From the NCBI GenBank assembly GCA_029582265.1, contig CM055835.1, positions 12,579,498 through 12,643,497 of the forward strand: DNA of 64,000 bases, given 5' to 3'. The notes under the pieces are model-generated. The model searched no databases, was not told the origin of the DNA, and saw nothing but the letters and a program-made list of their open reading frames with translations. The position numbers and the translations under genes were made by a program. Positions within the stretch are counted from its first letter, which is position 1, and every line of letters begins with the position of its first letter. This document shows, piece by piece, positions 5,941 through 60,882 of this stretch. The stretch comes from Zoroaster sp. YZ-2022. Lineage: Eukaryota; Echinodermata; Asteroidea; Forcipulatida; Zoroasteridae.

Positions 5941-7255
5941 TTTTTTTTTTTTTCTTCTCCTTCTTCTTCTTCTTCTTTTCCGGATCGATTGTCTACAAAA
6001 AAACACATACTTGCAAACTTCATATGAACTTGAAACTTGGCACATACTTAGAACATAACACGTAGATGAAACATAATTTGTGACGTCATTATTAGGTCAT
6101 CAGATATCGAATTTCGATCAATCATTCTTTATTAGTTAAAACGTTTTGATTACGTTGCAAATGAAAGATCTACACGGCTTTTTCAACGCTAAAAAAGTGC
6201 GCCCTCTGTTGGTGAATGTAAATCAGCTCTGGTCGTGCTCATTATGTATGCATGTAAAAATCATATCTCAACAACCACAACAGGTAAATTGACAGTTTTT
6301 GCACCATTGTACAGATTGTTAATTGTCAAAAATATGTACACAAAGGTGACTAATTTGACCTTACTTCCTGCCCAAACCGGAAGTCAAAATTTAATATTAA
6401 AAACAAATCATATCTCCACAACCACAAGAGGTAAATTGACATTTTTTGTATCATTGTATAGATTGTTAATTGTCGAAAAATATTTACACAAAGGTGATCC
6501 CAATTCGACCTTACTTCCTGTCCAAACCGGAAGTCAAAGTTTAATATTTAAAAAATCATATCTCCACAACCACAAGAGGTAAATTGACATTTTTGTATCA
6601 TTGTATAGATTGTTAATTGTCGAAAAATATTTACACAAAGGTGATCCCACTTGACCTTACTTCCTGTCCAAACCGGAAGTCAAAGTTTAATATTTAAAAA
6701 ATCATATCTCAACAACTACAAGAGGTAAATTCACAATTTTTGTACCATTGCACAGATCGTTAATTGTCCAAAAATATTTACAAAAAGGTGACCCCAATTT
6801 GACCTTACTTCCTGTCCAAACCGGAAGTCAAAGTTTAATATTAAAAAATCATATCTCAACAACCACAAGAGGTAAATTGACATTTGTTGTACCATTGTAT
6901 AGACTGTTAATTGTCGAAAAATATCTACACAAAGGTGACCCCAATTTGACCTTACTTCCTGTCCAAACCGGAAGTCAAAGTTTAATATTTTAAAAATTCA
7001 TATCTCAACAACCACAAGGGGTAAATTCACAATCTTTCCACTATTGTACAGATTGTTAATTGTCAAAAATGTTTACAAAAACATGACCCAATTTGACCTT
7101 TACTTACTGTCTAAACCGGAAGTCAAAGTTTAATATTAAAACAAATAATGATGCAAAGTTTCTTTTAAAAACATTCTGACGTCGTCATCACTGCCCTGAC
7201 AAAACTCGAACACCTACATGTATGTGTTTGTATTATCACAAACACTGCCGTCTAG
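5941..7255 (+). mobile_element. Helitron2-like non-autonomous element, copy 2
   Basis: It begins immediately after the CTAG of copy 1 with the T-tract and the same unique segment as copy 1 (GATTGTCTACAAAAAA, 5989), and lacks its own TAGGTGTTCG end. Then come about six ~145 bp minisatellite units (6255-7135). The 3' end repeats the signature: CGAACACCTA (7207-7216), hairpin GTGTTTGT/ACAAACAC (7224-7231/7238-7245), six bases, CTAG (7252-7255), T. A ~110 bp insert with a CATGTATG stretch separates satellite and end. Confidence 0.72.
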
Positions 7256-9980: not shown

Positions 9981-10166
9981 ATGGCCGACAAGCAGAGTCA
10001 TAAAGACACGATAGTGATTTGGCACGAAGCCGTGCAACTTCTGGACCGTGGAGAGCGACAGAAAGCTCTTGAGAACCTGCAGGCGATCAGGGAGCCATCA
10101 GCAAAAATTCTGTACAACATCGGGAACATTCAACAGGTCTTGGCTAACAATCGTAACGCGGTGCAG
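9981..10166 (+). CDS. NCF2: Exon 1: module 1 TPR start (aa 1-62)
   Basis: Begins ATGGCCGAC and ends at CAG before gttagt, phase 0. It encodes the first TPR helices (IVIWHEAVQLLDRGERQKAL, then AKILYNIGNIQQVL), matching the start of p67phox. The residue equivalent to human Ser37, a Rac contact, is Ala here. A longer in-frame reading upstream lacks an ATG. Confidence 0.88.
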
Positions 10167-13100
10167 GTTAGTAAATCATATGTATTATGAATGTGCTGCT
10201 TTATTTATTTATTTTGATATCTTTGATGAGTAAACCCATGGGAACTGAACAAAAAGTAATAAGTAACAAAAATCAACTAGATAAACGTTTGCATTGAGTC
10301 ACAAATGCAAGGTGTTCAGGCGTTGTCATCTCTGGTCATGTTTGTGCAAAACATGTGAAAAAAGTAAGAATCTCTGTTGTAATTTGAAATTCTTGTTTCG
10401 ACCGGATGGAAGGCACTGAAATGCATGTAGAAACTCGTACCAAGTTATTGTGAATTTCTTTTTAAAATTAAACTTACTGTTTGAAGCAGAAAGTTGAAGT
10501 CATTATGACTTGGCTTAAGTCATAATTCACTGTTAATTTAAGAAATTATTAAGTTGATCCATTTTGTAAAGCGCTGTGATACCTTTCAGTCGTGTAAGAG
10601 CACTATATATAAATGCTATTATTATTATTATTATAACTAAAGAAGCCTTGGCTTACATGAGCAGCCTCCATAGTCCGTGCTTTCAAGCTTTCACCATGTA
10701 TTTTTATTTTATTTATTTACTTTTTTAATGAAAGGTTGCCAAAACACAAGGCTCTTAAACACAAGGCTCTATTGATTTAGCCTGACTGCCTCTTCCCTTC
10801 ACAAGGTCAGACTATAGATCCGCACCCACATACTAAATATCATGTTTAGCAAATTCCTAAATCTATGATTTCTCCTTTCCAGAAAATCCCACTGCTTTGA
10901 CCTTCATACAAGTCACCTTCAATTATTGGCCATTATTATAATTTTTCACTTACTAAATATCTTTATCAGGTACTACCGTATTTGCTCACCAAATGACAGC
11001 ATCTTCGACATGTTTTCATATACGTCTTTCTGCAACAATGCCATTTTTAAGAACTCATCGTCAGATTTTAAAAATCATATTAATTAATCAAGTTATTATC
11101 TAAAAAATACAGAAATTATTTCCTTGCTTTCCTCTTAGCGAAAACAAGAATTATATCAAATGCTTTTTGTAAAACATAGTTTTCTCAAAAAACTTTAGCA
11201 CCTTTTGTAATTAAACTTTCATAGATTAGTTTTATATACTTTGTACACGTATATTTCTTGTACCAAATTTATCACCAAATTGCAAATATCAATGTTTCGA
11301 ATGAAGAATGATGCTAGTAAAAGCAATTCTACTCTCTTTGAATCAAGATATACTGTGTGCATTAACAACAAACCTGTGAAAGTATCAGCTCAGTATGGAC
11401 AAGTCATGAGAGTCAAGTGTGTAAAAGCATTCATAGTTTTTTTTACAAAAAGCACTTGGAGCAAAAGTCTGGCAACTTTGTGATACATGTACATGTTGGT
11501 GTCCCTGTTACGTACACGTAGGTAAATGTACCATTTACAATGCATTATTATTTATTATGACTCCTACATATGTAATTAACATTATTGTAATATTATTTCA
11601 TTCTAATTCGAAGAACAACTGAGAATGTTCACTCATAATAAGTATAATGAATAGTACATCTGTCTTCGTAACACCATGTCACAAACAAAGCTTGCCCCGA
11701 CCTGGTGGAATGACCTAAATAATGCATATTTGTTGACGTATATTGTTGAGAGTTTTTCAGGCAAAACTATTTTTTTTTAAATGATTACTGCATGTACATG
11801 TACCATGACCGACTTCACATCAAGTTTGCTTTCTGATAATACATCAGGATTTTGTAATCAGGTAATTGCCAATGTTACACCTTCTCTTTGAGTTTTGTGG
11901 ACGTTTCTTTCTTTTCAGACGTTTATGAAATGCGTAGAGAAAGATCCACACATGGGAATAGGTCACTTCCAGCTGGCCCACACCTACTATCAGCAACAGA
12001 ACTATGACGAAGCTTTCAAGAGCCTGGAGAAAGCACGCACCTGCCTACGAGGAAACAATTTCATTGACTACAAGCAGCTTGGGCTGGCATACAAGTTATA
12101 CGAGTGTGAGGTACTGTGGCGTTAACTGTTGTCAAAGTTGGGGGGGGGGGGAGAATGATTCAACATTTCCATTTACAAACACTGTCCTTGAACATAATCT
12201 TGTTCTAAGAAATGTCTCACCCGTGGATTTTACTATTTTAATGCTAATTTGTGACCCGCTCCATCGAAATGACGAATTTCCCCTGACACATGTTTCCGTG
12301 TAATGGACTTCCAAAGTTCACAAATCGTGCATGACTGCATTATTACATTATCAATTTATCACATCCTAACAAAGGAATGAAATGAACCAAAAATGAATGT
12401 TTGGCATCATCAGAAAGCCCATTAAATTCTCTTTAAGTTGATACATGTATATCCATATCTCAAAATGGGAAATTTGGGGGACATTCTTCATTTCGATGAA
12501 GCGGGTCACATTTTGTATTTCATCATCGAACAATGTTACTTTATTTAAAAAAGGGAAAAATGAAAATTCTTTAAAAAGATATGCATAGACTGCAGTGACA
12601 CCGTGTGAAATTCTCAATTGAGTAGCAATTACACGTAGTTCTGAAAAAAACCGGTGACCTACAACTCAGAACTAATTACTACTCAATTGAGAATTTCATA
12701 TGGTGTCACCTCAAACAGTCTTTACTTATCGTTTTCACCATGCAAAGCTACAGATATTATTTAACAAAATATTCATGGGAAGCATATCGCAAGTAAATAT
12801 AACACAAAATAATTAATAATGGGTCCCGCCTTCAATTCATTTTGTGCTCTTAATTACTGTTGAACCAAGCTTCTAACAATTGTTGGAGAAGTTCAACCAC
12901 TAAAGTCTTTCCTAATTTTCTCCGTCAACCTGTGTCTTGTGTTGATAGATTCTCCATAACCTAGCGCTGACCTTTGCTGCTCTGAATGATCCCCAAGGTG
13001 CCTTGGAGTTAATGAAAGAGGCAGTCAAGTATAAATCAGAGAGCAGACATAATATAATTGACTCAGCGCTACAAGCTCTGCAGGTAGGTAAAGTTGAAGT

Positions 13101-16100: not shown

Positions 16101-19100
16101 TATATTTTCAAGCTGATGATGGTATGAAACTACCTTAGATGTAATTTATCCAATGTACTCTATATAAAAGTTGGATTTAAAGCTTTGCATGGGGGGAGGT
16201 TTGCGGTAGCACTATACAATCTCTTAGCCCTCCTATGGTTTGACGTTTCAAAACCTTTCAAAATCTGCTTACGGGCCAAAATGGCTATCAATTATTATGA
16301 ACCCTTTAAAACCCTCCAGAATTTGTTGCTACTGAACAACCACACCTTTCAATACCCTTTGAAAGGTATTGAAACATTTCAACACCAGTTTGTTCAGAGA
16401 GTAGTTACACCTTTCGAAACCTTTCATAGGTCCCTTTTGTCAGACAGTTTTCTCACCTTTCAAAACCCTTCAGTACAGCAAACTTGAAAGGTTTTGAAAG
16501 GTCTGACAATTCTATGGCAACTGCACTGTATATAGGAGGGTTAGGAGTTGTAATAGTTGTTGAAGATAATAAGAGTACACAGATCAAAACGTCAGGTCAC
16601 CACTGGTTCTTCTCAGAACCATCAATTATTACAACTCCTCAGATAGTGTTACATGGTGCTACCACAAACCTTACTTTTATTAAATGATTGTTTGAATTTA
16701 GTACACAATAAAACTTCCTCATGATCATGAAAAAATAACGTTAGTACCTGCTTTGGTTCAATATCTGAGATTGGAAAACAATCCCTTTTTAAAAATGGCA
16801 CTAGGGGGCGCTTTGAACTTTGATGACATCAAATTATTTGAAAGCTTAGGTACCGGTATTCAATAGGGTTGATATTTAAAACAAAAACGAAATAGACAAA
16901 TTGTAATGTAAACTGTACTTGTTAGTAAATTCCATGTTAAGAATTAATAAACAAAATTAAAAAAAAAACTGTATAGTTTTTTCATTTTTTCTTGTGATCA
17001 AATAAACCACAACTAGGTATATACATGTAAATAATATGTGTTGGAATGAACAAAGAAAGATTTACTAGAGAAGGATTTGAACCTGTGACCTCTGGATGTA
17101 ATATGTTCTACCAACAGATCCATTTTTTGTGTTAATGACACAGCGTTGTAAGCTGAAACTTCCACAGGATGGAAAGAGAGTAATAGTGGAGCGGCTTAGC
17201 TCCAAAAAACAGGTCGATTGTGCACTTTCCCTTAAAAGCATGAAACTTGGCACATGGTTAGAGTAACACAATACAAAGAATTTTAGTCCAGGGGCCACCG
17301 GAAATTGCACCCCGTATGGCGGCCATCTTGGATTTCAAAATGGCCGCCATTGTGGATCTGTTTTGTTGAATATCTCCTTAACTGGTAGAGATATCGAGAC
17401 AGTTGAAACGCCTATACCCACATTTTAGGGGTCTAGGAATCCAATGGTGACACAAAATGTTTAAAAATTGTGGCCGCCATCTTGAATTCCAAGATGGCCA
17501 CCATCCACAAGCTATTTTGCTCAATATCTCATGAAGTAGTAAAGATATCAATACATTTTTAACACCTATACCCACGTTTTAGGGGTCTGGGAATCCAATA
17601 GTGACATTGAATATGTGGCAGCTATCTTATAATCAAAGATAGTCACCATCCAAGGCTATTAACATAGCATATCATCAGTCAACAGAATGACACACAACAT
17701 GTGAAGGAATGACCGGGTCATTCCTTCACATGTTGTGTGTCCACCCATCAAGAAAACATCACGAGCAGTTGGCGAAAAAGCACAGTTACTGTCTCTTGAC
17801 TTTTCTAGTCTCTGTTGCATTCCCCATCACAAGAACAAAGTGATGTGCATGGAAGTGCAGACTTCTTACACCTGCACCGACCAGTGCATCCTTTTGTGCA
17901 TCCACACCGGATAAGTTCATTGCAGATCTTTGCAGCTTCCGGTAGTGTTGTCCAAATCGGTTTGAACTGACCTTCAGATGTCTTTTCCCAACCCCACTCA
18001 CTTGGACATGGGAGCTGAGGTTGCGCATGTAATGCCTGACCCCAGCATAAGGATCCTTGGTACACTGCACGTCCGAACATGCTGCACCAGAGCGTGGTGT
18101 GTAGGCGGAATTGATTCTAGAGGTCTGCCTTTCTTTGCAAACAGTTTCTTTCGTGCTGTATTAATGTCACTACAGGTACTTCAGCGATCATACATCAAAA
18201 TGACTAATCTTGCAATGATGCTCATACAGGACTCGCTATATCTGTCTGTTCATGGTTGACTTCAGATAGCGCATCTCAGAGCTCTGGGAACGACTCCATA
18301 CAGCCCATGCAGTTCGCTTACCACGCCCAGCAAACGCTGACACAGTGTCGCATCCTGTCAGTGCATGAAACATGGGGAGGGCGTTACACTTCTCAGGGCC
18401 GAGAGCAGTGGCTATGTCATGTGCAGAGATGAATCGTAAGCTCTTCCCTGTTCCGAAGGCTAACCATATCTTCACAGAAAGTCTCTGAGTTGCTGTAATG
18501 GCGAGCACGACAACATCTGTATCAACGGTTCTAATGAGGATCCTGTCATTCCCTCTGTGCCGCATCAGCTGCATGGAGGAACATGCGCCATCTGCCTCTT
18601 CTGGCTGCATGGAGCAGGTGGTTCTAGGTGCATGCGTGGTGGAGCAAGCAAACCTCAGTTTCCAGTGTGACTACTAACTCCTTTGCTCTGGTCTTCAACT
18701 GATTTGATTATTTCTTTGGAGAGGAAACTGAAAAGTTCTGTCTTGTTTTCGGCCGACGAAGAAAATTCTGCCATTGTCCAGGAACTGCAACTGAGGTACC
18801 ACACGCTCATTTAACTCCCTTGCCACGCCTTTCTCGGGTCATGCTCTTCAGACTTCCAGGCAGGTAGCGGTCCCACACCAGGTCAAGTCGGTTGCAGATT
18901 TGTACTGTGAGAGAACAAATGGGATGAATACCTCTTTGGCATATTCTCCGAAAGTCTTCACTGTTCCAGGATTTAGCATTTGAACAATCGCTGCCCCATC
19001 AAGTATTACGCGTAACCTCTGGAGCCTGTGTACTTGGCGGTGTCATTTCAAGCATTGCAAAGATCACTCTTTGTTCCAGTTCAAGCTTCCTGCCTGGGAC

Positions 19101-25100: not shown

Positions 25101-28100
25101 GATAGAGGGAGATGACTCCATGTTTTAAAACAATCTCTATTGAGTATACATGTAGTGTTGGTTTTGGGAAGAACTTGGGTTTACATGACGTTCTCAACCT
25201 GAACAACAATCTCATAATTGCTCTGACCAAGCTTGAACCAAGTTTTGAGATCATTTTACACAATGTAGATTTGTTGAAATTATAACAGTGGTTTAGCTGA
25301 TTTTTCATTTAAAAATTATTAAATGGTCCTGAAAAGCTGCATATGTACACTGTACATACAAGTTTATTACTCATGGGCGAGTTCAGTTTTGCCCAAACTA
25401 ATGATATGTTCTATAACACCCTATATTTTGAGAAATGTTGTCATTGATGATCATTGCTCTCATCAACACTATAAACATGTTTCTGGTAACTGTACACATT
25501 TTTTTGCAACTTGTTTCTGGGCATAAGTCTGAAAAAGATATTGATAATTGTAAATTTTTATCATTTGTTAATTTTGTATAAATATAGCCACTCTTGAAAA
25601 ACAACGTTTCACTGAAAAACACAGCCAATAGGGCTATCAAATAACCGAATATTTGAATATTCGATTGATGGTGCTTCCATCATTATCTCCCCCCCCCCCC
25701 CCAAATCATCCTCTCGTCTCCATTTGGTCGTCACCTAGCAAGTCCATCCTAGTCCGGGCGACATGATGCTTAATACATATTTTGGCCCCTCCATATTGTG
25801 CGTGCTCGTTTTATCACATGGTGCAATTTACAATCGGCGGCCTTCGAATATTGAATATTAATTCGGAATCAAAATCCGAATATCCGGTTACCAAATTATT
25901 CGAAAACGCACAGCCGTAACGGCCAAGACACATTAACTAGCTTGATTCGCCAATGATGTCATAAACATTGCTTTTGACATACATGTAACAATGTACAGGT
26001 ACATGTACACAATTTGTCCAAAGTCAGTTTATTTTAAGAAATACATGTAAGATGCCTCGGCAAACATCACTAGTGATTATGTATCAATATTGTATTTCCC
26101 AACCTGAATTTCCAGCAAGGAAGACAGCCCGAATCCTTTGTGGTACCCGGGGAGCACATCTTCCGCCCACCCGCTGCCAAGGTCCAGAACATCAAGGTAG
26201 TGGACTACTTGGGTAAGGCCAAGGTGGTGTCTGAGCTAGTCCCTCCTGATGCTGAAAGCAAGACAAGAAGACGGGTAAGAAAAGAATGGATAACGTTGAG
26301 TTATCTCACCACCGGTTCTTGTCACTCAGAACCAACATTAATTACATGTATAACTTTACAATGTACTGTACATGTTGATTCCGCAGACCTTCCACCACAC
26401 AAATCTTCAAATCCTATTCTTATGTGTACAATCAAAATACAAAATACAAGGGATTGTGTCACCCAGGTACTCCCCAGTGGTAACCAGGCAATCATAAAAG
26501 TACTCAAACCTACAAACATGTACATGTAGGATTAAAATTGTGGAGTACCCTAGGTGACAACGACCCTTTCTGCAATAATAATAAACTGTATGCAATAATC
26601 TTGAGTGTAGTAAATTGAAAGAAGTTTAACAAGTTAGAAAATTTTTATATGTGGCAAGCTGAAGCGCACATGTCAGACAGACCAGATGAGGGCTGGGGGT
26701 GGACTTAGTGGGCGTTATGGAGACTAAAGAAAGTCACTCAAGGGTCTGATGAAATAAGTGTGTTTACCTCGGATTCATTATTTAAAATAAGTGAGTTGAC
26801 ATCGACAACCATGTCATGATTATGCCCGTATTTCACATTGTTCTCTCTCTTGTAAACTGTTTATTTTATTATTATTATTTCTTTTTTACAGAGCCCAAGT
26901 CCCCTCCCACCGAATCGCCCACCTCCTGTAGCCCCGCCCGCAAATGCTTTCATACCCATAGACACCCCATCCTTAAGAAGTCAATCCCCCAATTATAAAT
27001 CACCACCCTTTCGCCCACCCCCCCGTGGGCCACCACCATCTGAACCACCACCCAGTGGAAACAGAAGCAGCCCCTCCATACCATTACGCCCTCCCCCTAC
27101 ACCACCAAAAGGAACCTCCCCATCTCCCAGTCCGACCTTTCCTAAAGCCACCCACAAGGACACGATCCATATGTGGAACGAAGGGGTGTTGATGTTTGAG
27201 AAAGGGCAGGTGGGGCCAGCACTGGACCAGATGTTTAGGATCGTCGAACCAACGGCCAAGATCTTATTCAACATTGGGATGCTGCAACTGAAACTGGGGA
27301 ATGTCTCAGAGGCAGATGAGGTAGGGAGGTCATTGGGGTTGGACTTAGCTAGGAGTCCCCTTAATGGCCAGCAAGTTGACTGGTCATCATTTCTGGAACT
27401 TTTCATTGGGAGTAAATGTATGTAGTCCTGAGCTGCACTAAGCATTTTGGCAGCTTGTGAAACACGTCTCAAAATTCCACTGCTTAGAACATACCATCGA
27501 GATGACAAAACATCGGGAATACACACTTTCCTCTCTTGGAATACACAGCATTCCATTTGGGAATGGTTGTGTTCTCAAACTTAGTATCCCATTTGGAACA
27601 TTTCTTTAAGGAGTACCCTCATTGAGAATACCTAGGTTTTCCCGTTTTAAGAACAGCTGCAATTCCCACTAGGAATACTGAATGTCAGAGCTGCCAACCA
27701 GTACGATTTTGTCGTATTTTGTATGATAAAACGATTAAAATACGACACTACGATATACATGTAAAAAAAATACAATTTCTTAAAAAAATACCAACTAAAA
27801 ATTTATATTGCCTGGTTACTACTTCTTTCCGTCCGCGCGCACAAACCTTATGGTATTTTTTACTGGACGTTAGGGTTAAGAATATGATTTTTGTGTTCAA
27901 AATAGTATTTTTTGGATTGTGAATATGATTTTTTGTCTGCTGAGGTTGGCAGCTCTGGAATGTTCATTTCGGGGATGTACTGTTTTCCTGAAAGGAATGT
28001 TCCTATGTTTAAAGTGATGTACACTTATAAATGATGTATCAAGTTTTCAGAATTTACAGACATGAGAGCAAACATGTGGCCAAAGGGGTGAGGGGGCAGT

Positions 28101-31100
28101 TGTCCCCCACCTCTCTTTTGGGTCATTTTTTAATATATTTGAAAGACAAGTTGCCCAACAGCAATTTTTACTCCATTTTGACCCTTAAAAGAATGGGTAG
28201 GAGTTGTGCTGTGTTACTGTTATTTTTCTGGGTAAATCATGTACACTAAACGCATAACCAGTGTTTCCATATTTATCACTTTGAAGGTGTTCCATTCAGT
28301 TATCATGAAGGACCCACATCTGGCCATCGGCCACTACCAGAATGGTAACGTCCAGTGCCAACTCAACAGACCTGACCAAGCAAGAAGGCAATATGAGAAG
28401 TGTATGGACAGCTTCCGAGGTCACAAGTACATCGACTACAAACAGCTTGGGTTGCCATACAAACTCTACGAGTTTGAGGTGGGTAAAATGCCAGACTCGG
28501 ACTCGCCATGTACATGTACAATGACTCGGACTCAACCCCTTGGGACCTGGAGTCAAGCGCTTCTGTGACATGGACTCTGAAGCAAAATGGCCATTTCAAA
28601 TATAAAAAAACATTCTTAAACCCAGCGAAGATTACTCTGTAAATAGATACCATGTACATTATGAAATCCTAATGGAGGAAGAATTGCTGTGGTAAAAAGC
28701 ACTTACATGTATTAATTACTCAGACTGAAACTCAGCCTTCATGAATTAAGACTCGAACTAGGACTTTGATTACTCAAATATAAGTATGAATATGTATGAT
28801 GGATGTTTTTCCTCGGGCAAACCGGGTTTAATAAGGACCGAGCCCGTGACCATGCACAAAACAGGTCATTAACCTGTGGTAAACACCAGACGACAAACTG
28901 TTATTCACCATTCATAAATGCACGTATCAATTTTTTTTTTTTTAATTTAAAAAATGTAAAATTTTTGTTGAATAAAGCCAAATAGAAATGGGCAAATTCA
29001 CATTTTGGGGACACATGAAACACTTTTAAAGTACATGTACACGAGTCAGACGTGTGATGCAAAACAATCTTTCGTCACTCTGATTGGTTCAAATCCACGT
29101 CACACGAAACAGCTGGCATATACGCGCTGCCCTGATTTTGATAAGCCATATCTTTACCATCCGTTAATACACCCTCACGTGATTACGTTTTGTCCAATCA
29201 GATTGTCTCAACCGCTTACTCATTTATGAATGGTGGGTGTCCCAATTCCAGCTGAGTCTAACAGTTGGGTGGTAGTGTTACTGCATGGTGTTGGACTTTG
29301 GTGGATTCAGGAAGGTTATTAGCCGAAATAGCCAGGGGTTAGGGTTAAAAGTATCACATTGTATTGTCACAAAACCACACAGTGTTCCCAAAAGGAATGT
29401 TCCAAATGACACAAGAACATTCAGAATGTGGAGGTGCTACTTTACTGTGATGCTTGTCTGACTTATTGGTATCTAGGTGCTTCACAACCAGGCATGGGCT
29501 TACTACAAGCTTGGCCAGCGAGACACATGCCTTCAACTACTGAGGAGTGCACAGGGGACGAGACCGGAAACCAGACATGATGCTATCGATAACGCTCTCA
29601 AGAACGCAGAGGTACAGTATTGTGAATGAGAAACAAAATTAAACATAGAAATCAATACAATCTGTGCACAGGTTGTTGAGGGCGCTTTTCAGTAAATAGT
29701 GAAAATACATTTAGAAATTTTGATCGGCAAATATGAAATTTGTATTAATTCTAATTTTAATACACGATGGTTGCCAAAATTGTAACGTATATGTACATAA
29801 TTAGGGAATAATATTTGCGTATTCAACATTTAAATTTTGTGTTAAAGTGTGATTATTTATACTTTTTGAGTAAAGCAAATTTAAACTGCGTACAGTGTGA
29901 CTAGTGAACATAATTAATGCCACAAAAATTGCGACAAAAAATGTAACCAACATGTATATGTTGACATTTATTATTTGAATTTCATATAAATTATACTCGG
30001 TTTGTAAAGAAAATAGTTTTTGCATTTAGATGTTTTTCCCTTAGGATAACAAAAGGAATTTTATCAGCACAATCTCTAGCATGAAATCTTATTTTATGAT
30101 TTGGTTCATCCGTAGGCTGGAGCCCCTTTTGACATCATGAAGCTACCCAAAGGAGCACTATTCCGTCCCCCGAGGACCAAAATTGATAACCTGAACAAGA
30201 TCGATTACCTCGGCCAGGCAAAAGTTGTGTCAGAGCTACCCACAAACAGAAGCCCTTCTCCTAACACCACAGTAAGTAAATCTCCAACCTGTTCAAATCC
30301 TTAGTCCTCTAGTCCTTTAGACTTTAGTTGCACCACCAATAAAGGTATACAGGCAGCCAGCCAGCCAGTAAGGAAAGCAAGCAATCCAATTGGCAACCTG
30401 GCAAGCACGCAAGCGCAAGCAAGGTGCAAGCAAGCGTACAAGCAAGACTCTGGAAGAAGGCAAGGATAGCAAGTTGGAAACTTGAAGCAACTAGGTAGAA
30501 ACTCGGACATAAGCTAATAATAATAATGTATAGATTTATATAGCGCACGTATCCACCAACTAAGTGGCGCTCAAGGCGCATTATATTATTATCCCTGCTC
30601 ATAAGGCTCATAAGGCTCATAAATCATTCCTGAAACCATCTCAGCTCCCTGGGGAGTATACAGCTCAATTGCTGCCATTTCTAGCGCATAGAGAGCAAAC
30701 CATCTCTGCCTTCACAGGTACCCATTTAACCCCTGGGTGGAGAGAAGCAATTATGGTTAAGTGTCTTGCTCAAGGACACAGGTGTCACGGCTGGGGCTCG
30801 AACCCACACTCTGCTGCTGGCAACACCAGAACTTGAGTTCAGTGCGCTAGACCGCTCGTCCACGACAATCCACTTTACGTGCATTATACAACACACGGGA
30901 CCTACGGCTTTACGTCCCATCCGAAGGACGAAGCAATTATGGTTAAGTACCTTGCTCAAGGATACAAGTGTCACGACCGGGGCTCGAACCCACACCCTGC
31001 TGCTGGCAACACCAGAACTTGAGTTCGGTGCGCTAGACCGCTCGGCCACGACACTCGGCCGCTCGGCCACGACAAGCTAGCAAGCAAAAACACATGAAAC

Positions 31101-34100
31101 AAATTAAGTAGACAAACACAAAATGTGAGAAAGTAGACAGTCATGCTAGATGTCCATGTAGTGTACAAATTAATTTGGATTAAAGATTTATCACCAGTGT
31201 TTTTAACAACAATTAGTTTTTTTAATGGAACATTGTTAATTTCCGTTTTAGAAAGGAAAAATGAACCCTAACCCCCCCCTACAGGCTGCTCAATGCAACA
31301 AGATCCACTAGCTAGAACAATGGTTCTTTTGTTCTCTGCTGAGGACAACAAGATACAAGGACTTTTTACATTTTTTGCATCTTGTTGCATTGAGCATGGT
31401 TAGGGTTAATAGTAATTAATTCCCCCAAATTAAATTATGATGGAACCCAGCTTATATTCCTTTTAGCATTTAAACCATGCTACCAGTTAAACCATGCTGC
31501 CAGTTAAACCATACTATTAAATGTATCATCTTAATGTATTTCTTTTCACCATACTATTAAATGTATCATCTTAATGTATTTCTTTTCATTCTCTCAATTA
31601 AAATACTCAAGTTCAAAAGAAAAAATATCAGAAATTGTCGTACAAATAAAAACTTGAGTGATACATCTTGAAGTTAACACTGATTGTTATTTGCACGTTT
31701 TACCCAAATTGTCAAGATATTTAAAAAACTTTCAATCAACAGGTTCAGCAAGCTAACACGGAATCTTTCTACCTCCCGATGTCCCCTCTGTCCCCTCCTC
31801 CACAGGCTGTCAAACCCCAACAACAAAAGCCACGCCCAAACAAATCCGTTCCAACTCTTCAGGGCAAAGCACTGCCTGTGCCTCCTAGAAAGTCGCTGCC
31901 GGGTGTCCCAGTTGGGCGCCTAACACCGGTGTCGCCCCTCAGCATACCATCAGCTGATCTGCCGGCACCCATACCTCCTAGATCAACTAGTCTGGGCCTT
32001 GCTATTGACCCTCCACCAAGCCCTGGTCCACCAGAGAGACCCCTCCCTGCGATTCCGATTCACATAACATCCGATGTGAGCACGCTCCCGCGGAGAACAC
32101 CGCCTCCTCCTCCAACCCAAAACGGAACAGAGAAGCCGACAAACGGGGACCACAGGAGAAAGACAAGCCCCGCCTTCAACGCAAATAAACCGCTCCCCAT
32201 CAAACCAAGAACTGAGACTGATTCCTCAAGTAACACCCCTACAAACACCCCACCCATGTCAAAGCGGCGTGCAAGTCCTGTCCCTCCAGATAAGCCATTA
32301 CCCCCATCACCCCCATCACCAAATCGCCTAAACAGTCCTACCCCTGAGAAAAGAACTCCTGGACCTCCTGACAAACCCCTCCCACCATCCCCAAATCGAT
32401 TAAGTCCAGGTTCACCGAGGCGGGATCCGCCCGAACTCCCAAGTTCTGGAGCCAGTGATATTCAGGAAAGAAAGAAGCGACCGGTCAGTCCTCTCCCACC
32501 AAAAATTCCTGTGCCCTCTCCTCCCCCGAAGTCGAAAGATAACCAAGACAGAAGGACAAGACCTGTCAGTCCACTACCACCCAATGTTCCTCTGCCCCGA
32601 CCTCCCGTCAGGGGAGGCGGGGCGATACAGACGAAGATAGGTAGCCGGGATGCAAATTGGCAGAGCCCTGGAGCAGCCAGGAAGATTTCCAATGAGGTGC
32701 AGGGAAAACGAAGAGTACCAACAATTGCAAATAATAATACACATGTGAGTGGCCATCTCATTTAAATAATACAAGAATCTGGTGTTTTTTGGTATGTTTT
32801 GGTCTGTCTTTCATCTACTGCTGGCATTAACTTTTTTTTCTAGAATGATCTAAAATCTTCGAGCTTGAATTATTTTTGTCTGCAAATTTTCAAAACCATT
32901 TGCTTTTTTGTTGCTATCTATAGGCATGCAATTATTTGCTTGTGAAAAATAATCCCAAAGGCAGCCGTGTAGGCATGGAGAGGGGCGAGGTGAGCAATTG
33001 CCCCATCCCCTTGGACCTGTTTAAAAAAAAGATAATAGTAGTTTTTCTATGACCTCAATCTAAATTTTAATTTGGCATTTGTCATACTGGAATTAACCAT
33101 TACAAATCTAATTATTTGAATGGTGATTTAACACGTACAATATGTACAATGTACGTATATATTTCATTTTGTATATTTTGCATTAATGGGAAGGTACATG
33201 TACAACATTGGTTATCAACAGCAAATTATTATCTAAAAAGGCTTACTTGGTGTTACACGTATAAATCAATCCTGAGAAATGATTCCGTCTGAAAAAAACA
33301 GGAATTGTTACATGTATGTTGAATATGAGAAAAATTGCTGAAAAACATAATAACATAAAAACCAACAGCAACAGTTTTGTCAAAAACCTGAGCACCTATT
33401 TTAATGCAATTTTCACAGGTTAGTTTTATGATGTATTTCTTAAAAGCTAGAGGGTTAAAATGAACATACTTTTCCAAATGCCAAAGTTGTACTGTGTACT
33501 TTCACTTTAAAGCCCCTATATTATTGGTATTTTCAAAAAACATAAGGCATTTTTTTCTATAGAATATTATGACCAGGAAGGCTCTGAAAATAGCCATTTG
33601 TGATGCCACTGGAGGTAGTTCCGTATATAGGGTTGTTGTCACAATCTCAATCCTACGCAGGTTTGTGTACTTTAACCCTAACTCCCTAGGCCCACTTGCT
33701 TACACATAACATGTATGCACACATGTGTTTCTAATCTGTAATACATGTACATGTACATGGCCAGGGACCCTCCCTGCATGCATGGAGCAATAAACAGTGT
33801 CCACTAACCCAACCACTGACCCAAGCACTGACAACAAACATGGATGTACATGAACCATGGAAAGGCAAGTATGCCTAATAACCTCAATCCTCCAAAATCC
33901 TTCACTTTAGCAAAGAGCATGCAGCATGTAACCTCAATCCTTCAAAATCCTTCACTTTGGCAAAGAGGATTTTGGAGGATTTGGGAAGGTTAGGGTTAAT
34001 GATTGCCTTGGTACCATTGGGGAGTACCCTGGGTGACAGTGACCCCTTCAGCGATATTAACTGATAGACACCATCTTTACTGGCAAAATGAATTTGGCTT

Positions 34101-37100
34101 TTATAGTTTTAGCTGCTTTAAGCATTCTAAGTTTACTTTGTTTACTTTGTGCTTAACCAACGAATGAAGCATACAGTTACTTTTAAATGGCCACATGCAA
34201 AACGCATGACAATTACTCCACATTCACCCAATTTTTTGGCACTATTTTTAAAGTAAGCCTCACAATTTCGTATTGAGCTTCAAATCCAACTCTGCATGTC
34301 GTGCCATCATGCCCATGAATAACCTCTGCATAAACCCTCCTCATTAATAACATTAACCCCTCCTTATGGTGTTCAGCTGTGCATGGTGACTATCAAGAGC
34401 TACGTGGCCAATGACAAGGGTGACCTGAGCTTCAGCATAGGAGAGATCATAAAAGACTGCAGAGAAGGTTGCCATGCATATTTAGTTTTTATTTTATTTC
34501 TGTGGCCAATTTCACTGCTTACCAGTATATAGCAAATTTCTTTTGACATAGTGCCAAAACTGCTAAAAGTAAAAGCAAAAACAGTAAGTGACACCAAACC
34601 GAGCAAGGTGTAGACCAGTTTTTGTTTGTTTTTCTGAGGGTCTGAATCCAATATTTGGTATTCTTGCCGAAATTTCATTTTTAATAGAATTTTGACTTGA
34701 TGACTGGGATCCCCGGGGTCAAAACTGCTACAAGCCAACTAGCGTGAGAGGCCAGTGGATTAACAGAAAAACTACTTCTGCTAAGTTTGATAGTCCGGAG
34801 GGCTAGTGTAACACAAAATAAGAGACACATCATCACAAAGACTGACAAATGCAAAACTGTTCCTTGAGAAAAACATGGTATAAACTAATTTGAACTAATT
34901 TTAAATTTCTGTTTTGAGACATTAAAATGCACATGAACAATAACTGTTTTATTTTAATTTATTCACGCTCTTTGCATGATTGTTTAATGATCTTTCAAAG
35001 GGCTACTAAAACCTAAGGAGGACTAGTATAATTCAGTTGTTACTGATCCTGCTGGCTACCATAAAATACAAGTTAATTTTGACCCCTGAACCTTGAGGTT
35101 AGAGGAACCAAAGGTCTGGATGCATTATATCCAGAATTGAGCTGCATACAGTCATTAAAAGTTGTATACCACCTCCAAAACCCTCCCCCTCCCCCTCAAC
35201 ACATTAGGCGCTGATTGTAAACAAAAAAACATGACGTGAAAATTTGTGAATTTACATAGACTTCAATTTGCAGATTACAGATGATTTTTCCAAAGTAAAA
35301 TACATGTACATGTAGGTTAATTGGCCAAGAGACAAATATCTGTGTTGGTTTGCAGTATCATGAGATTGACCTCTGACCTTCTGCATGGAAACAAAATGCT
35401 CTGCATTGAATTTGGGAACATTATTTTGTTTTGCTTTTTCAAAATTAAAATCATTGTACACTGTTGGTAATTGGCGTTATTTGTAAAAGAGATTTGCTGT
35501 AAAAAAGTGGTGATTATAACACATACCATCCTTCAAAATATCAAGCAGAATTCCTTCTTTTTAAGACAAAATATAATAAGGACCAAAAGATCACATGGTA
35601 ATCTTTTTGTCTTGATGAATACTTATCCATTTACCAATATTTGTGGTCAGTCATGGAGGCCACTGCCTTCATTGGCCTTGGTGCCCCTTAAACATTTTCA
35701 TATAGACATTATAAAAAACAAAACACAAAAACCAACTTCCTTCCTTCGGACATGATTTTCAAGTTTTTACAGAACATTCATCAATGTATTTATTTTAGAT
35801 GGCCTGACATGCCAAATGTATTTCCTGATTCTCACACTGTACATGTGTACCTATAATGTCTATAGGCCTACTACTACTAGTAAACGGATTTGTCAAAGTC
35901 ATCAGTGGTGTACAAATGCATTTCAGGAAATGATAAAATACATGTTGATAGCTGATCATATTTCAATACTGTCTCACTGTTTGTTTCCATTTCAAAAGCA
36001 AGCACGCGGAAACAGTTAAAAAAAAAATTTTTTTTTTGGACAATAATTTTTTCCATATGCATGTTGTGCATGTGAAGATCATATAGAGCATTATCTTAAA
36101 AATGCCCGTCTTTTTCTCAATTATCTATACCAGATGTCTATTACCTACACAAAGTGTGCCGTTCATGTATTTTAGTCCACAGCATTGTAGGAACAATGGA
36201 TTTGGGCTGTGCATTCATGAAGTTATATTCCATAGACTAACGTGCAAGCTCTGAAAAGAAGATGCGTAATAACTGCGTTTAATATTGTAAAAGTGCCAAT
36301 TAAGTGTGTGTTTTGCGACTCCATACTGGGCTCAGTTGCATCTAATTCGCATCCCGTTTACATGTAGTTCTGGAATGAGCAAGCAGCATAAAGCGCTTCT
36401 TCCATGTTCCTCTCTAGCAGTGTAGCTAGGCTCCTTATAATGCAGGAGTATATCCCTTCCATGGGGTTGGTCAACCTTGACAAATTTGTTTGATGATTAA
36501 TTCAATAATGTCATTTCTCACATCATTAACTTGTAATGCTATTTGTTATTAGCAAGAGGAAGTTTGCGATCATAGCACCATGTACATGTAATAATATATC
36601 TAATGAGTTGTAATAGTGTGTTGGTTCTGAGAAGAGCATACTGATGAAAACATTGAGTTGTCAAACCACTGGTTCTTCTCAAATCAGACAGACCTGGAAT
36701 TTCACGGAGGTCATGGCGTAGTTGTCTTGGCCTTGGTCTCCCTTCAAAATGGTCACAATGACATTCTGATATTCTAATTGAAATGCCCGTTACTCAGGAA
36801 ATTTTGTCTTGACTCTACAGGAATGAAATTCCAGGCCAGGACCAACCTACTATACAACTCAGAGATATTACATGGTACTACCACAAACTTCCTCTTAGTG
36901 TTCTTCCAACATGCAAAAAAGCTTCATATTCTGCTGATTGCCTAGTGATGTTATATTTTCATTTGTTTATAACTCTTTATCATTTAGCATTAAACATAAT
37001 CTTATGCATAATCTTATACTAATCGAAACGTCGAGTTGTACCACCAGTTCTTTTCAGAACTAATTACTACTCAATTGAGATTCCACATGGTGTCATCGCA

Positions 37101-37693
37101 ATTAGTCTTACTTATGCACAATTAACAAAAATATGAGAATAGTTTGAAAGCTTTGAGAATTGTTTGTGGCAAACACAAATCTAATTTGAAATTTTTGCTG
37201 CCCGCTTTTCATTTTAATTAAGCCATGCAAATCATCTCGGTGAGAGATTACCGATTGGGGTACATTGTATCCTCATTGTTTTTGTCATTAGGGTTCCAAT
37301 AGAGAAGTATCTCCCAATCAGGATGGTATCATAGAAGGCATCATCGGTTCCCGATTGGGGTACATTGTATCCTCATTGGGACTTTAGGGTTCCAATAGGG
37401 AAGTATATCCTAATTGGGATGGTATCATAGAAGGCATCATCGGTTCCCAATTGGGGCCAATTTGTATCCTCATAGGGAGATTAGGGTTTCACTCAGGGTA
37501 ACAGTATATCCCAATTGGGATAGGTGACATCAGCCCCGTCTGCTAAAGTAAATAATTATTATGCACCCATGTTTTTGTATTTTTTTGCCTCCCTTCAGTT
37601 GGAAGGGGAATTCTGGAAGGAGAATTCGGGGGAAAGACGGGGAAGTTCCCCAAATCAGCAGTACGAGATCTTTCCCACCAATCCTACTTGTGA
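9981..37693 (+). CDS. NCF2: Two-headed p67phox (NCF2)-like NADPH oxidase activator
   Basis: Eleven exons: 9981-10166, 11919-12110, 12949-13083, 26116-26274, 26892-27320, 28287-28478, 29477-29611, 30116-30271, 31743-32744, 34377-34467, 37599-37693. They join into 924 codons (923 aa) with no stop. p67phox activates NOX2-type oxidases by binding Rac-GTP through its TPR domain and contacting the flavocytochrome through an activation segment. Here TPR module 1 spans residues 1-171 and its activation segment 199-210 (VVDYLGKAKVVS). A proline-rich linker covers 225-315, TPR module 2 about 315-476, activation segment 2 504-515 (KIDYLGQAKVVS), a proline-rich region 529-862 and an SH3 866-918. Human p67phox has one TPR module, two SH3s and a PB1; no PB1 or first SH3 is seen here. 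Start: first in-frame ATG, with G at -3 and +4. Family assignment is confident; the fused two-module structure is predicted from splicing and reading frame. Confidence 0.85.
10167..11918 (+). other. Intron 1 of NCF2-like gene
   Basis: AT-rich, without other exons. A SINE-type 3' end (AAAGCGCTGTGATACC through CTATATATAAATGC, then ATT repeats) lies at 10563-10634. Confidence 0.55.
10560..10634 (+). repeat. SINE 3' tail fragment
   Basis: AAAGCGCTGTGATACCTTTC, a short gap, GAGCACTATATATAAATG and an (ATT)n tail form the typical 3' end of an invertebrate tRNA-derived SINE. The tRNA head is not seen upstream. Confidence 0.55.
11919..12110 (+). CDS. NCF2: Exon 2: module 1 Rac-binding TPR (aa 63-126)
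   Basis: Acceptor ttttcag, donor gtactg, phase 0/0, 64 codons. It carries KDPHMGIGHF (D71, H73) and the inserted hairpin CLRGNNFIDYKQLGL (R106, N108, D112). These align with human Rac contacts Asp67, His69, Arg102, Asn104 and Asp108, all retained. Confidence 0.9.
12251..12509. mobile_element. MITE with GTGACCCGC ends
   Basis: GTGACCCGCTCCATCGAAAT at the left and its inverse ATTTCGATGAAGCGGGTCAC at the right, flanked by ATTT on both sides (possible 4 bp target duplication). About 259 bp with no coding capacity, in intron 2. Confidence 0.7.
12595..12709. mobile_element. Short inverted-repeat element (GTGACACC ends)
   Basis: GTGACACCGTGTGAAATTCT...CAATTGAGTAG (12595-12625) and its inverse (about 12679-12709) flank ~55 bp. 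A partial related copy (ACTACTCAATTGAGATTCCA, then CATGGTGTCA) is at about 37070-37097 in intron 10. Confidence 0.65.
12949..13083 (+). CDS. NCF2: Exon 3: module 1 last TPR (aa 127-171)
   Basis: Acceptor gttgatag, donor gtaggt, phase 0/0, 45 codons. It encodes the final TPR helices (ILHNLALTFAALNDPQGALE) and the ESRHNIIDSALQAL stretch that precedes the activation segment in p67phox. Confidence 0.88.
13119..13538 (-). mobile_element. TTAA-flanked MITE (CCCTAACC family), copy a
   Basis: TTAA on both sides (13115-13118, 13539-13542). The left end CCCTAACCTTCCCAAATCC and right end AGGGAGTTACGG are the outer ends of the family seen in full at 33676-33995, inverted here. TTAA targets and CCCT ends fit piggyBac-type non-autonomous elements. 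Confidence 0.65.
13543..16227. other. Intron 3, left part: no exon recognised
   Basis: AT-rich. The phrase ATTCGTCACTATGAAAAAAA recurs at about 13898 and 14238, with a weaker copy near 14410, which creates similar short peptides in a shadow frame. A run of ACATGT repeats lies at 15592-15615. No coding exon is supported. Confidence 0.5.
16228..16540. mobile_element. MITE with CCCTCCTAT ends and TTAG duplication
   Basis: Left end CCCTCCTATGG, right end ATATAGGAGGG, with TTAG on both sides. The interior carries four or more repeats of AACCTTTCAAA / TTTGAAAGGTT, so it is self-complementary. It has the same ends as the TTAA group but a different interior. Confidence 0.65.
16960..17160 (-). repeat. 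tRNA-like SINE fragment
   Basis: Inverse-strand B-box-like GGATTTGAACC (17073) and TCTACCAAC at the A-box position (17106) match the tRNA-like unit at 52740-52905. Decayed. Confidence 0.4.
17689..17741. repeat. 53 bp perfect palindrome at inner TIR border
   Basis: Arm GACACACAACATGTGAAGGA...ATGACC (17689-17714), one central G and a perfect 26 bp inverse arm (17716-17741). The partner at 20163-20210 keeps about 20 bp arms and has a 2 bp interruption in the outer part. Confidence 0.9.
17786..20197 (-). pseudogene. Transposon protein with TGCDT and C-terminal CxC motifs, frameshifted
   Basis: In order on the minus strand: FFALDHTHYARWIPVH (about 19845-19800), SSIATDQAHEQNNACIKGDG and NPSALQRWMVAGPEVAR (about 19710-19585), DVLSRNKLPLF and REGNLDDFFRHENQ (about 19290-19110), ERVVPQL (about 18800), then ILIRTVDTDVVVLAIT, FISAHDIATALG and FHALTGCDTVSAFAGRGKRT (18560-18300). 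Last is a Cys-rich CGCTKGCTGRCRC...CTSLCSC tail (17905-17830). These motifs belong to a large, poorly characterised family found in invertebrate and fish transposons. The TGCDTxSAF block recalls the PIN/XPG-like nuclease fold, by inference. The frame shifts several times and has stops, so this copy is dead. Confidence 0.7.
21072..22216 (-). mobile_element. Helitron2-like non-autonomous element, copy 3
   Basis: Minus-strand copy of the family at 4761-7255. The 5' end TTTTTAGGTGTTCGGG is at 22216-22201, then a T-tract, the unique segment, about five minisatellite units (22030-21230), and an end of CGAACACCTT, hairpin GTTTTTGT/ACAAAAAC (21101-21094/21089-21082), six bases and CTAG (21075-21072) followed by T. 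The hairpin stem differs from copies 1 and 2 on both strands together. Confidence 0.72.
23023..23387. mobile_element. TTAA-flanked MITE (CCTTCCTA ends)
   Basis: TTAA at 23019-23022 and 23388-23391. The left end CCTTCCTACTG and right end AGTAGGAGGG are inverted. The interior is built of ACCATTCAAAACCATT-like repeats in both orientations. Confidence 0.65.
23751..24026. mobile_element. MITE with TTAG duplication
   Basis: TTAG on each side (23747-23750, 24027-24030). Left CCCAAACTACCCC, right GAGGGGGTTAGGG. The interior has three diverged repeats of a GTTGATGGATTNNG-type phrase, shared with 29240-29345, 46130-46450 and 59730-60000. Confidence 0.5.
24290..24945 (-). repeat. tRNA-derived SINE fragments (two, nested)
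   Basis: Two starts of the SINE 3' end (inverse of GCGCTATATAAGTCCACAC plus ATT repeats) at 24297-24335 and 24649-24690. Then comes the SINE body in minus orientation (CTCAGCTCCCTGGGGAGTAT at 24770; GGACACAAGT at 24905). The tRNA head is lost. Confidence 0.65.
24946..26115. other. Intron 3, right part: no exon recognised
   Basis: AT-rich sequence with a run of 14-15 C at 25689. A pair of ATTCGAATATT-type inverted stretches at about 25640-25665 and 25850-25910 may be the ends of a decayed inverted-repeat element. Confidence 0.4.
26116..26274 (+). CDS. NCF2: Exon 4: activation segment 1 (aa 172-224)
   Basis: Acceptor aatttccag, donor gtaaga, phase 0/0, 53 codons. It has VVPGEHIFRPP, then NIKVVDYLGKAKVVSEL. 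V208 aligns with human Val204, which is required for oxidase activation. The 13 kb intron before it is the longest in the gene. Confidence 0.88.
26275..26891 (+). other. Intron 4 of NCF2-like gene
   Basis: Contains the phrase CCACCGGTTCTTGTCACTCA (26309) of the AGAACC-repeat family and a small inverted pair GTCACCCAGGTACTCC (26459) / GGAGTACCCTAGGTGAC (26542). Nothing coding. Confidence 0.5.
26892..27320 (+). CDS. NCF2: Exon 5: proline-rich linker fused to module 2 TPR start (aa 225-367)
   Basis: Acceptor tttttacag, donor gtaggg, phase 0/0, 143 codons. The first ~90 residues are Pro/Ser-rich with PxxP motifs (SPSPLPPNRPPPVAPP; PLRPPPTPPKG). Without a break the same exon continues into HKDTIHMWNEGVLMFEKG and AKILFNIGMLQLKLGN, the first TPR helices of a second p67phox module. 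The first Met in the exon falls inside that TPR helix, so module 2 has no start codon of its own. This is the main evidence that both modules form one protein. Confidence 0.85.
27321..28286 (+). other. Intron 5 of NCF2-like gene
   Basis: Low-complexity degenerate repeats of GGAATGTTC / TTCCCATTTGGAA type (27510-28000), similar to those at 29384 and 51915-52170. A 250 bp segment around 27690-27960 is bracketed by CAGAGCTGCCAACC and its inverse GGTTGGCAGCTCTG, a TIR pair. Confidence 0.5.
27687..27957. mobile_element. Short TIR element (CAGAGCTGCCAACC ends)
   Basis: CAGAGCTGCCAACC at 27687 and its inverse GGTTGGCAGCTCTG ending at 27957. Both ends continue with diverged inverted copies of TACGATTTTGTCGTATTTT. 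CAGAGCTGCCAAC-type ends are common in hAT-like MITEs. No coding capacity. Confidence 0.55.
28287..28478 (+). CDS. NCF2: Exon 6: module 2 Rac-binding TPR (aa 368-431)
   Basis: Acceptor ctttgaag, donor gtgggt, phase 0/0, 64 codons, the same length as exon 2. It carries KDPHLAIGHY (D376, H378) and SFRGHKYIDYKQLGL (R411, D417). The position of human Asn104 is His413 and that of Leu106 is Tyr415. The acceptor has a poor pyrimidine tract, but alignment with exon 2 fixes it. Confidence 0.86.
28479..29476 (+). other. Intron 6 of NCF2-like gene
   Basis: Holds an inverted-end pair CACCATTCATAAATG (28907) / CATTTATGAATGGTG (29219-29233), probably a ~330 bp MITE, and a GTTGGACTTTGGTGGATTCA repeat ending in GGTTAGGGTTAA (29345). 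No other exon. Confidence 0.5.
29477..29611 (+). CDS. NCF2: Exon 7: module 2 last TPR (aa 432-476)
   Basis: Acceptor ggtatctag, donor gtacag, phase 0/0, 45 codons, the same length as exon 3. Sequence VLHNQAWAYYKLGQRDTCLQ, then ETRHDAIDNALKNAE, aligned residue for residue with exon 3. Confidence 0.88.
29612..30115 (+). other. Intron 7 of NCF2-like gene
   Basis: AT-rich; I see nothing but the splice signals. Confidence 0.5.
30116..30271 (+). CDS. NCF2: Exon 8: activation segment 2 (aa 477-528)
   Basis: Acceptor catccgtag, donor gtaagt, phase 0/0, 52 codons. It has KLPKGALFRPPRTK, then NLNKIDYLGQAKVVSELP. V513 aligns with human Val204; the Lys before Ala in module 1 is Gln510 here. Confidence 0.88.
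30518..31076 (-). repeat. tRNA-derived SINE with doubled tRNA head
   Basis: Minus-strand SINE. Heads with A box TGGCCGAGCGGTCTAGCGC (31065-31030) and B box GGGTTCGAGCCCCGG (about 30992-30977), then a second head (B box about 30810-30795). The body contains ATACTCCCCAGGGAGCTGAG, and the 3' end is GCGCTATATAA plus ATT repeats (30543-30519). The head resembles the long-variable-arm class (Ser/Leu type). Confidence 0.75.
31264..31405. mobile_element. Small MITE (CAACAAGATGCAA repeats)
   Basis: Ends ACCCTAACC...GGCTGCTCAATGCAACAAGAT and its inverse (CATCTTGTTGCATTGAGCAT, then GGTTAGGGTTAA). A second copy is at about 39207-39333. Confidence 0.55.
31743..32744 (+). CDS. NCF2: Exon 9: long proline-rich region (aa 529-862)
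   Basis: Acceptor caatcaacag (an alternative AG 6 bp downstream also stays in frame), donor gtgagt, phase 0/0, 334 codons. Pro, Ser and Arg/Lys dominate. Near-repeats include SPVPPDKPLPPSPP / PGPPDKPLPPSPNRLSPGSP and RPVSPLPPKIPVPSPPP / RPVSPLPPNVPLPRPP, both with flanking basic residues typical of SH3 ligands. Predicted disordered, and it sits where vertebrate p67phox has its first SH3 and PB1. Confidence 0.82.
32745..33671 (+). other. Intron 9, left part
   Basis: AT-rich and unremarkable apart from ACATGT repeats near 33190 and 33310. No exon seen. Confidence 0.45.
33676..33995 (+). mobile_element. TTAA-flanked MITE (CCCTAACTCCC family), copy b
   Basis: TTAA at 33672-33675 and 33996-33999. 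Left CCCTAACTCCCTAGGCCCAC, right GGATTTGGGAAGGTTAGGG. The interior contains GGGACCCTCCCTGCATGCAT and a duplicated TAACCTCAATCC...AAAATCCTTCACTTT phrase. This is the most complete copy, and related copies lie at 13119 and 63027. Confidence 0.75.
34377..34467 (+). CDS. NCF2: Exon 10: SH3 first half (aa 863-892)
   Basis: Acceptor ggtgttcag, donor gttgcc (weak), leaving phase 1. It encodes MVTIKSYVANDKGDLSFSIG, then EIIKDCRE: the RT-loop half of an SH3 domain, with the conserved acidic/LSF pattern. Confidence 0.72.
34468..37598 (+). other. Intron 10 of NCF2-like gene
   Basis: Contains TACTAC/ACATGT low complexity, two stretches of the TTGGTTCTGAGAAGA / CCACTGGTTCTTCTCA family (36627, 36665, 37042) and the tandem array at 37244-37530. 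No additional exon, in particular no PB1 coding segment, was found by reading all frames. Confidence 0.5.
37244..37530 (+). repeat. ~98 bp tandem repeat, three units
   Basis: Units begin CCGATTGGGGTACATTGTAT (37250, 37349) and CCCAATTGGGGCCAATTTGT (37445). Each continues with CCTCATTGGGAC and CCCAATTGGGATGGTATCAT. The array ends 68 bp before the final exon. Confidence 0.75.
37599..37693 (+). CDS. NCF2: Exon 11: SH3 second half and stop (aa 893-923)
   Basis: Acceptor cccttcag. The split codon GTT gives V893, then GRGILEGEFGGKTGKFPKSA, VRDLSHQSYL and TGA at 37691-37693. ILEGEF-GGKTGKFP is the standard second half of an SH3, but the ligand-binding Trp position reads Ile897 and the usual Tyr after FPxN is Ala913. 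Other frames of this stretch do not match SH3. Confidence 0.72.
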
Positions 37694-37878
37694 CAGCCCT
37701 GACCACACCACTTATGAGGTCTTCTGAACGTGCTGAACAACTCTCACATGCATGTTAGGACATTTGGTCATGTTAACTGTACTAATTATTGTTTTAATTT
37801 GGAGTACTCTATGGCAAGTTAACAGTAGTTTTGAAAACTTACATGTATAGACCGCCATGTTGAAACCGTACTTGTCTG

Positions 37879-53515: not shown

Positions 53516-53683
53516 CTATAATCGTACATTCTGGTGCAACTCCGGCTTGATGTCAAATATAAGATCAAACAGTCCCAACAAGACTTCCTCTTTGCTCTTG
53601 GAGACACGGATGTCCATCTCACTGATCTTCCGTCTTGTCTGCTCCTCAACTTCCTTGGCCTGGTCACCCTTGGAACCTAGATA
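53516..53683 (-). CDS. ATP6V1G1: ATP6V1G exon 3 and stop
   Basis: Acceptor ctgccacag, phase 0, 55 codons and TAG at 53518-53516. YLGSKGDQAKEVEEQTRRKI, then FDIKPELHQNVRL, matching the conserved DIRPEIHxNYR end of subunit G. Confidence 0.9.
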   Translation of the reverse strand, partial: YLGSKGDQAKEVEEQTRRKISEMDIRVSKSKEEVLLGLFDLIFDIKPELHQNVRL

Positions 53684-60868: not shown

Positions 60869-60882
60869 AATATAAACATTAA

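Follow-up and report, generated by a model that had tools for sequence, protein, structure and literature searches.

Does this starfish locus encode one p67phox-like protein with two complete Rac-binding and activation modules, and what would a second module do? p67phox and NOXA1 are Nox activators, the organizers being p47phox and NOXO1, and what is known of the working oxidase comes from species whose activator has one head. The gene lies in a 64,000-nucleotide stretch of DNA from Zoroaster sp. YZ-2022 (the window), for which a first-pass annotation had proposed a duplicated organizer that could bind two Rac molecules or bridge two oxidase complexes. The class named there was wrong, since p67phox is an activator, but binding of two Rac molecules or bridging of two oxidases would be compatible with the residues conserved in both modules. 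Our preferred reading, to which we give a probability of roughly 0.55, is that a single gene specifies a two-headed p67phox that acts as a bivalent activator of Nox2-type oxidases.

Gene model and domain plan

Rebuilt from genomic DNA, the gene consists of 11 exons, all on the forward strand between 9981 and 37693, which join into 923 codons and a stop without interruption, as previously annotated; all introns have GT...AG borders. Head 1 is encoded by exon 1 (9981..10166; start codon and first TPR stretch, aa 1-62), exon 2 (11919..12110; aa 63-126, a TPR and the Rac-binding loop LRGNNFIDYK, with equivalents of D67, H69, R102 and D108), exon 3 (12949..13083; last TPR, aa 127-171) and exon 4 (26116..26274; aa 172-224), which carries the activation domain DYLGKAKVVSEL with a V204 equivalent. 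Exon 5 (26892..27320; aa 225-367) fuses a proline-rich linker, with an NAFIPI motif at 26943-26960, to the first TPR stretch of head 2. Its translation contains no in-frame Met ahead of module 2, which confirms that this module has no start codon of its own. Head 2 continues through exon 6 (28287..28478; TPR and Rac-binding loop FRGHKYIDYK, aa 368-431), exon 7 (29477..29611; last TPR, aa 432-476) and exon 8 (30116..30271; activation domain DYLGQAKVVSEL, again with a V204 equivalent, aa 477-528). A long proline-rich tail follows in exon 9 (31743..32744; aa 529-862). The C-terminal SH3 domain is split between the 91-nt, phase-changing exon 10 (34377..34467) and exon 11 (37599..37693), which supplies the second SH3 half, lacking the ligand-binding Trp, and then the stop.

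Exons 1-4 and the stretch from the end of exon 5 to exon 8 are collinear paralogues, in agreement with the initial description. Specifically, the internal exon pairs 2/6 (192/192 nt) and 3/7 (135/135 nt) are indeed identical in length, exons 4 and 8 measure 159 and 156 nt, and 56 codons were counted from the HKDTI motif to the splice site both in exon 1 and at the end of exon 5. BLASTP aligned the two modules over 209 residues without a gap, 90 of which are identical (43%), and the local score of 450 lies beyond chance (31.7 ± 5.0 in 500 shuffles, maximum 56). The claim that all exons are in phase 0 held for exons 1-9, but not for the exon 10/11 junction, which is in phase 1.

Both heads match human p67phox (1hh8), head 1 with an E-value of 5e-43 and head 2 with 8e-36, and the gene product can thus be called a p67phox-like protein with two complete TPR and activation-domain modules in one frame. 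A Pfam scan of the joined protein, as the first-pass annotation had suggested, recovered TPRs in two blocks and one C-terminal SH3 (SH3_2, PF07653, E 8e-6); it did not detect a central SH3 as in vertebrate p67phox, nor a PB1 domain at E ≤ 1. The protein shares with vertebrate p67phox (NCF2) the TPR fold, the Rac-binding insertion with its residues and the activation domain, while NCF2 differs in having one head, a central SH3 and a PB1. The same activator module is present in NOXA1 and in the p67phox-like proteins of hemichordates and amphioxus. As far as the available text of PMC2121648 goes, PB1 is also absent from the urchin and Ciona members of the family, and an SH3 is found in vertebrates and S. 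purpuratus while Ciona has a different C terminus. Neither PB1 nor a Trp-bearing C-terminal SH3 is therefore family-defining.

Spread, age and conservation of the two heads

The first-pass annotation knew of no described two-headed p67phox. A case was, however, already in print: according to the accessible part of Kawahara & Lambeth 2007 (PMC2121648), a p67phox-like protein of S. purpuratus has two sets of TPR and activation domain, the second named Sp-p67phox-C. As in the starfish protein, these are followed by a proline-rich region and an SH3, with no PB1 reported in that part. The S. purpuratus protein retrieved here (P0007) has the same domain order, and both of its heads were found by the module profile. 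Head 1 of the urchin models is preceded by about 75-95 more residues than that of starfish. The available portion of PMC9421330 makes no mention of a doubled p67phox, and no further description of a two-headed p67phox was found in the open-access literature, as judged by titles and abstract openings. To our knowledge, four points described below go beyond the 2007 report: the occurrence of two heads across the phylum, a sound second head in the classes other than urchins, the changed SH3 of starfish and an exon that may be read in two frames.

Relatives were collected by three protein searches and a module profile, and a head was counted at E < 1e-20 over at least 140 positions. By this criterion 12 of the 179 fetched proteins have two heads, 150 have one and 17 have none. 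The TPR-AD-TPR-AD order, which the initial annotation had proposed to look for in related genomes, was found in 11 other sources and in all five echinoderm classes. These are the starfish Asterias, Acanthaster and Patiria, the brittle star Amphiura, the urchins Lytechinus, Diadema and Strongylocentrotus, the sea cucumber Apostichopus and the crinoids Anneissia (two isoforms, head 2 being shortened in the second) and Antedon, a feather star, making 10 named species, plus the holothurian-like contig P0082. The latter is 2,736 bases long and has an unbroken 819-aa frame that is 54% identical to Apostichopus. Its source label 'lgn' presumably denotes an assembly of public reads and, with 819 codons in 2.7 kb, P0082 would then be a spliced transcript or a retrocopy. 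The closest matches to the joined protein are proteins of three sea stars, with 58-61% identity across 63-99% of its length, and in three other starfish the counterparts of module 1 are 72-77% and those of module 2 81-84% identical. The orthologues P0001, P0002 and P0005 carry misleading database names (KMT2D-like, PRR12-like and BRD4-like), which we flag here since the two-headed p67phox gene is probably an innate-immunity gene.

Every fetched hemichordate and amphioxus protein has one head. No one-headed echinoderm protein was found by name among the matches listed, the best 120 of 438 in one search, which omit known Amphiura, Lytechinus and crinoid proteins and include some without a species name; the absence of such a protein is thus only moderately tested. 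A head-1 query against the own genome (~1.0 Gb, 616 contigs) recovered seven of the gene's eight head exons, exon 1 among them, and one other match with an E-value of 0.23. No one-headed paralogue was seen with this single query; because it missed exon 7, a short or very divergent copy could escape.

In a 34-row tree, all 22 echinoderm modules grouped together (support 92/86), beside the hemichordates (95/95), which are the nearest one-headed relatives. The echinoderm grouping had reached 85/77 in an earlier 28-row tree that included Lingula, later dropped as a long branch; P0082 was in neither tree. A duplication confined to starfish was rejected on the 34-row tree (AU p 0.007). Clades of all first heads (p 0.285) or all second heads (p 0.363) were not rejected, yet both are absent from the best tree, where the four crinoid modules come together at a node of negligible support (38/7) and the sea cucumber rows are long branches. 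The simplest reading of these sequences would be one duplication before the crinoid split. The splice form X3 of Anneissia (P0022) runs from head 1 straight into head 2, without the linker or the first head-2 TPR, and its join falls at the border corresponding to exons 5 and 6 of the window, which agrees with an exon plan that is old and shared.

The residue table comprises 22 modules from 11 species, and for this comparison we take H69, N104, L106, D108, Y198, L199 and G200 to be positions with roles in p67phox. D67, H69 and R102 are kept in all 22 modules and D108 in 21, and L199 and G200 are likewise invariant. At position 104, head 1 has N or S, whereas head 2 has H, N, K or no residue. 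At the V204 position 19 modules have Val and three have Ile, the latter being the second heads of the three urchins, so that head 2 has the valine in 8/8 table species outside urchins, starfish included. In P0082, added later and outside the table, D67 and R102 are present in both heads, while head 2 deviates by H69Y and G200D. The available text of PMC2121648 names Asp67 and Arg102 as Rac-binding residues of p67phox, and the roles of V204 and of Trp494, the residue of the C-terminal SH3 to which the organizer tail binds, are also taken from it. It further remarks that the second activation domain of the urchin protein is not well conserved. In view of the residues tabulated here, this remark fits the urchins better than the other echinoderm classes.

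Of the 16 species pairs compared, 12 showed higher identity in head 2, including its activation domain, than in head 1, and four showed lower identity (one of them equal after rounding); these pairs are our choice among 66 possible ones and are not independent. A degenerating second head was considered as well and is unsupported in starfish, brittle star and crinoids, while it is arguable in urchins and P0082. The predicted model of the Patiria protein places the strands of the Rac-binding beta-hairpin insertion at 110-112/121-123 and at 410-412/421-423; with a pTM of 0.34 it is uninformative on the relative placement of the heads.

Linker, SH3 domain and exon 11

With bounds set by hand, the linker between the heads ranges from 53 to 190 residues in the 11 echinoderm proteins examined, and in all of them it contains an [NSH]xFxPI motif. 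P0082 has FRPI, in which, by eye, the first motif residue is absent. No FxPI was noticed by eye after head 2 of the 11 proteins, in the first 90 residues or fewer. Several one-headed relatives have GFxP(L/V) following their activation domain, which suggests that the two motifs may be homologous.

The C-terminal SH3 of starfish is altered at the position of the binding Trp, which is occupied by I, V and L in the window, Acanthaster and Patiria, respectively, that is in 3/3 starfish proteins having the domain. The Trp is kept in two urchins, S. purpuratus among them, as well as in the sea cucumber and three hemichordates. This alignment represents nine of 14 proteins, the search pattern having missed Diadema, Ambystoma, Branchiostoma, Salvelinus and Halichondria; in the SH3 of Diadema and Ambystoma the Trp was read by eye. 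In isoform X2 of Asterias (P0001) the SH3 is absent and the C terminus is a tail of 42 residues. When exon 10 is skipped and exon 11 of the window is read from the same acceptor (37599..37727, forward strand), it yields a putative 42-residue tail of which 22/42 residues are identical to that of P0001 without a gap. This tail ends in a stop where the P0001 tail ends, beyond the stop of the SH3 frame. The alignment score is 110, the best of 1000 shuffles being 45. Since the shuffle ignores the constraint that the SH3 frame places on the same bases, two-frame use is supported rather than proved: exon 11 would give the end of the SH3 in one frame and the 42-aa tail in the other.

Oxidase partners and possible modes of action

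Five Nox-type loci, recognized by their FAD-binding exons and named by eye, are present in the own genome. They comprise one Duox-like locus (L009), two Nox5-like loci on C12 (L012 and L013) and two Nox2-like loci, C22:1778599 (L011) and C22:1833364 (L010), which lie about 55 kb apart on opposite strands. The same set of two Nox2, two Nox5 and Duox is given for S. purpuratus or echinoderms in the accessible part of PMC1940245, where the two Nox2 of S. purpuratus are named Nox2A and Nox2B.

An ancestor shared by living echinoderms would have acquired a tandem second copy of a cassette of TPR and activation-domain exons, probably by a single duplication. Fusion of the proline-rich linker with the first exon of that copy has placed both heads on one chain. 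The Rac-binding residues and the core of the activation domain are retained in both heads. Each could thereby bind Rac-GTP at the membrane and press its activation domain on a Nox2-type oxidase, and one flexible molecule engaging two oxidase-Rac units would raise local avidity and help to cluster the oxidases. Since the key Trp is gone from the starfish SH3, and one splice form seems to drop this domain altogether, a p47phox-like organizer might be contacted through the long proline-rich tail and not through a canonical SH3.

That two genes or transcripts with one head each were joined on paper, or that the assembly is in error, might be suspected from the 13-kb length of intron 3 and from a gene model that is known here from DNA alone. 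Such an explanation is very improbable: exon 5 carries both linker and head 2 with no start codon ahead of the latter, which led us to reject a separate start for head 2, and the same order recurs in the 11 other sources, including the single frame of P0082. A join of haplotypes is unlikely since the modules are 43% alike, as compared to 72-77% for module 1 and 81-84% for module 2 with their starfish counterparts.

Given one chain, the heads might divide the labour, head 1 being the true activator and head 2 a Rac-dependent membrane tether or regulator that does not switch the oxidase. Several observations speak for this and count against bivalence, namely the FxPI motif after head 1 only, the variable position 104 in the Rac loop of head 2, the urchin Ile at V204, and the departures at H69 and G200 in P0082. 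The valine in head 2 of all eight non-urchin species, L199 and G200 in 11/11 second heads and the better conservation of head 2 in most species pairs, however, argue against it, and we regard it as a tentative alternative. A pairing of the heads with the two Nox2-type genes, one head serving or being specialised for each, is unlikely; the paired Nox2-like loci on C22 and the Nox2A/Nox2B pair of S. purpuratus (PMC1940245, available part) would suit this idea, but the comparison rests on two species. The bivalent activator remains our preferred reading. A bolder extension of it, which we consider doubtful, is that echinoderms swapped the one-headed activator of the other animals sampled here for an obligate bivalent p67phox that bridges two Rac-bound Nox2 complexes, possibly Nox2A and Nox2B, so that oxidases are activated in pairs, and that starfish tune this by a two-frame splice switch in exon 11 that keeps or drops the SH3. 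With two conserved heads on the only p67phox found in it, this phylum could show by natural experiment whether oxidases work singly or in pairs, and the altered docking SH3 of starfish could show how fixed the tail-to-tail docking of p47phox and p67phox is.

Some further features of the window and the genome were observed. When 10 other open frames were scanned with Pfam, the one match was weak and fell below the Pfam cut-off: possibly the last part of a V-ATPase G subunit (PF03179, E 1.7e-4) at 53519-53905 on the reverse strand. There was no Rfam match at gathering thresholds. Intron 3 contains a probable DNA transposon (17317-20575), with antisense open frames between tandem units of ~154 bp that are apparently mutually inverted. 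A 147-bp tandem array lies upstream of the gene (5040-7146), and a similar unit, apparently inverted, recurs in intron 3 at 21228-22031. A 44-bp minisatellite of 41.5 copies (98% match) occupies 60865-62687. Elsewhere in the genome, C1:23.5-31.3 Mb gave many TPR_1 matches, several with equal scores, as if a gene or element family had expanded there.
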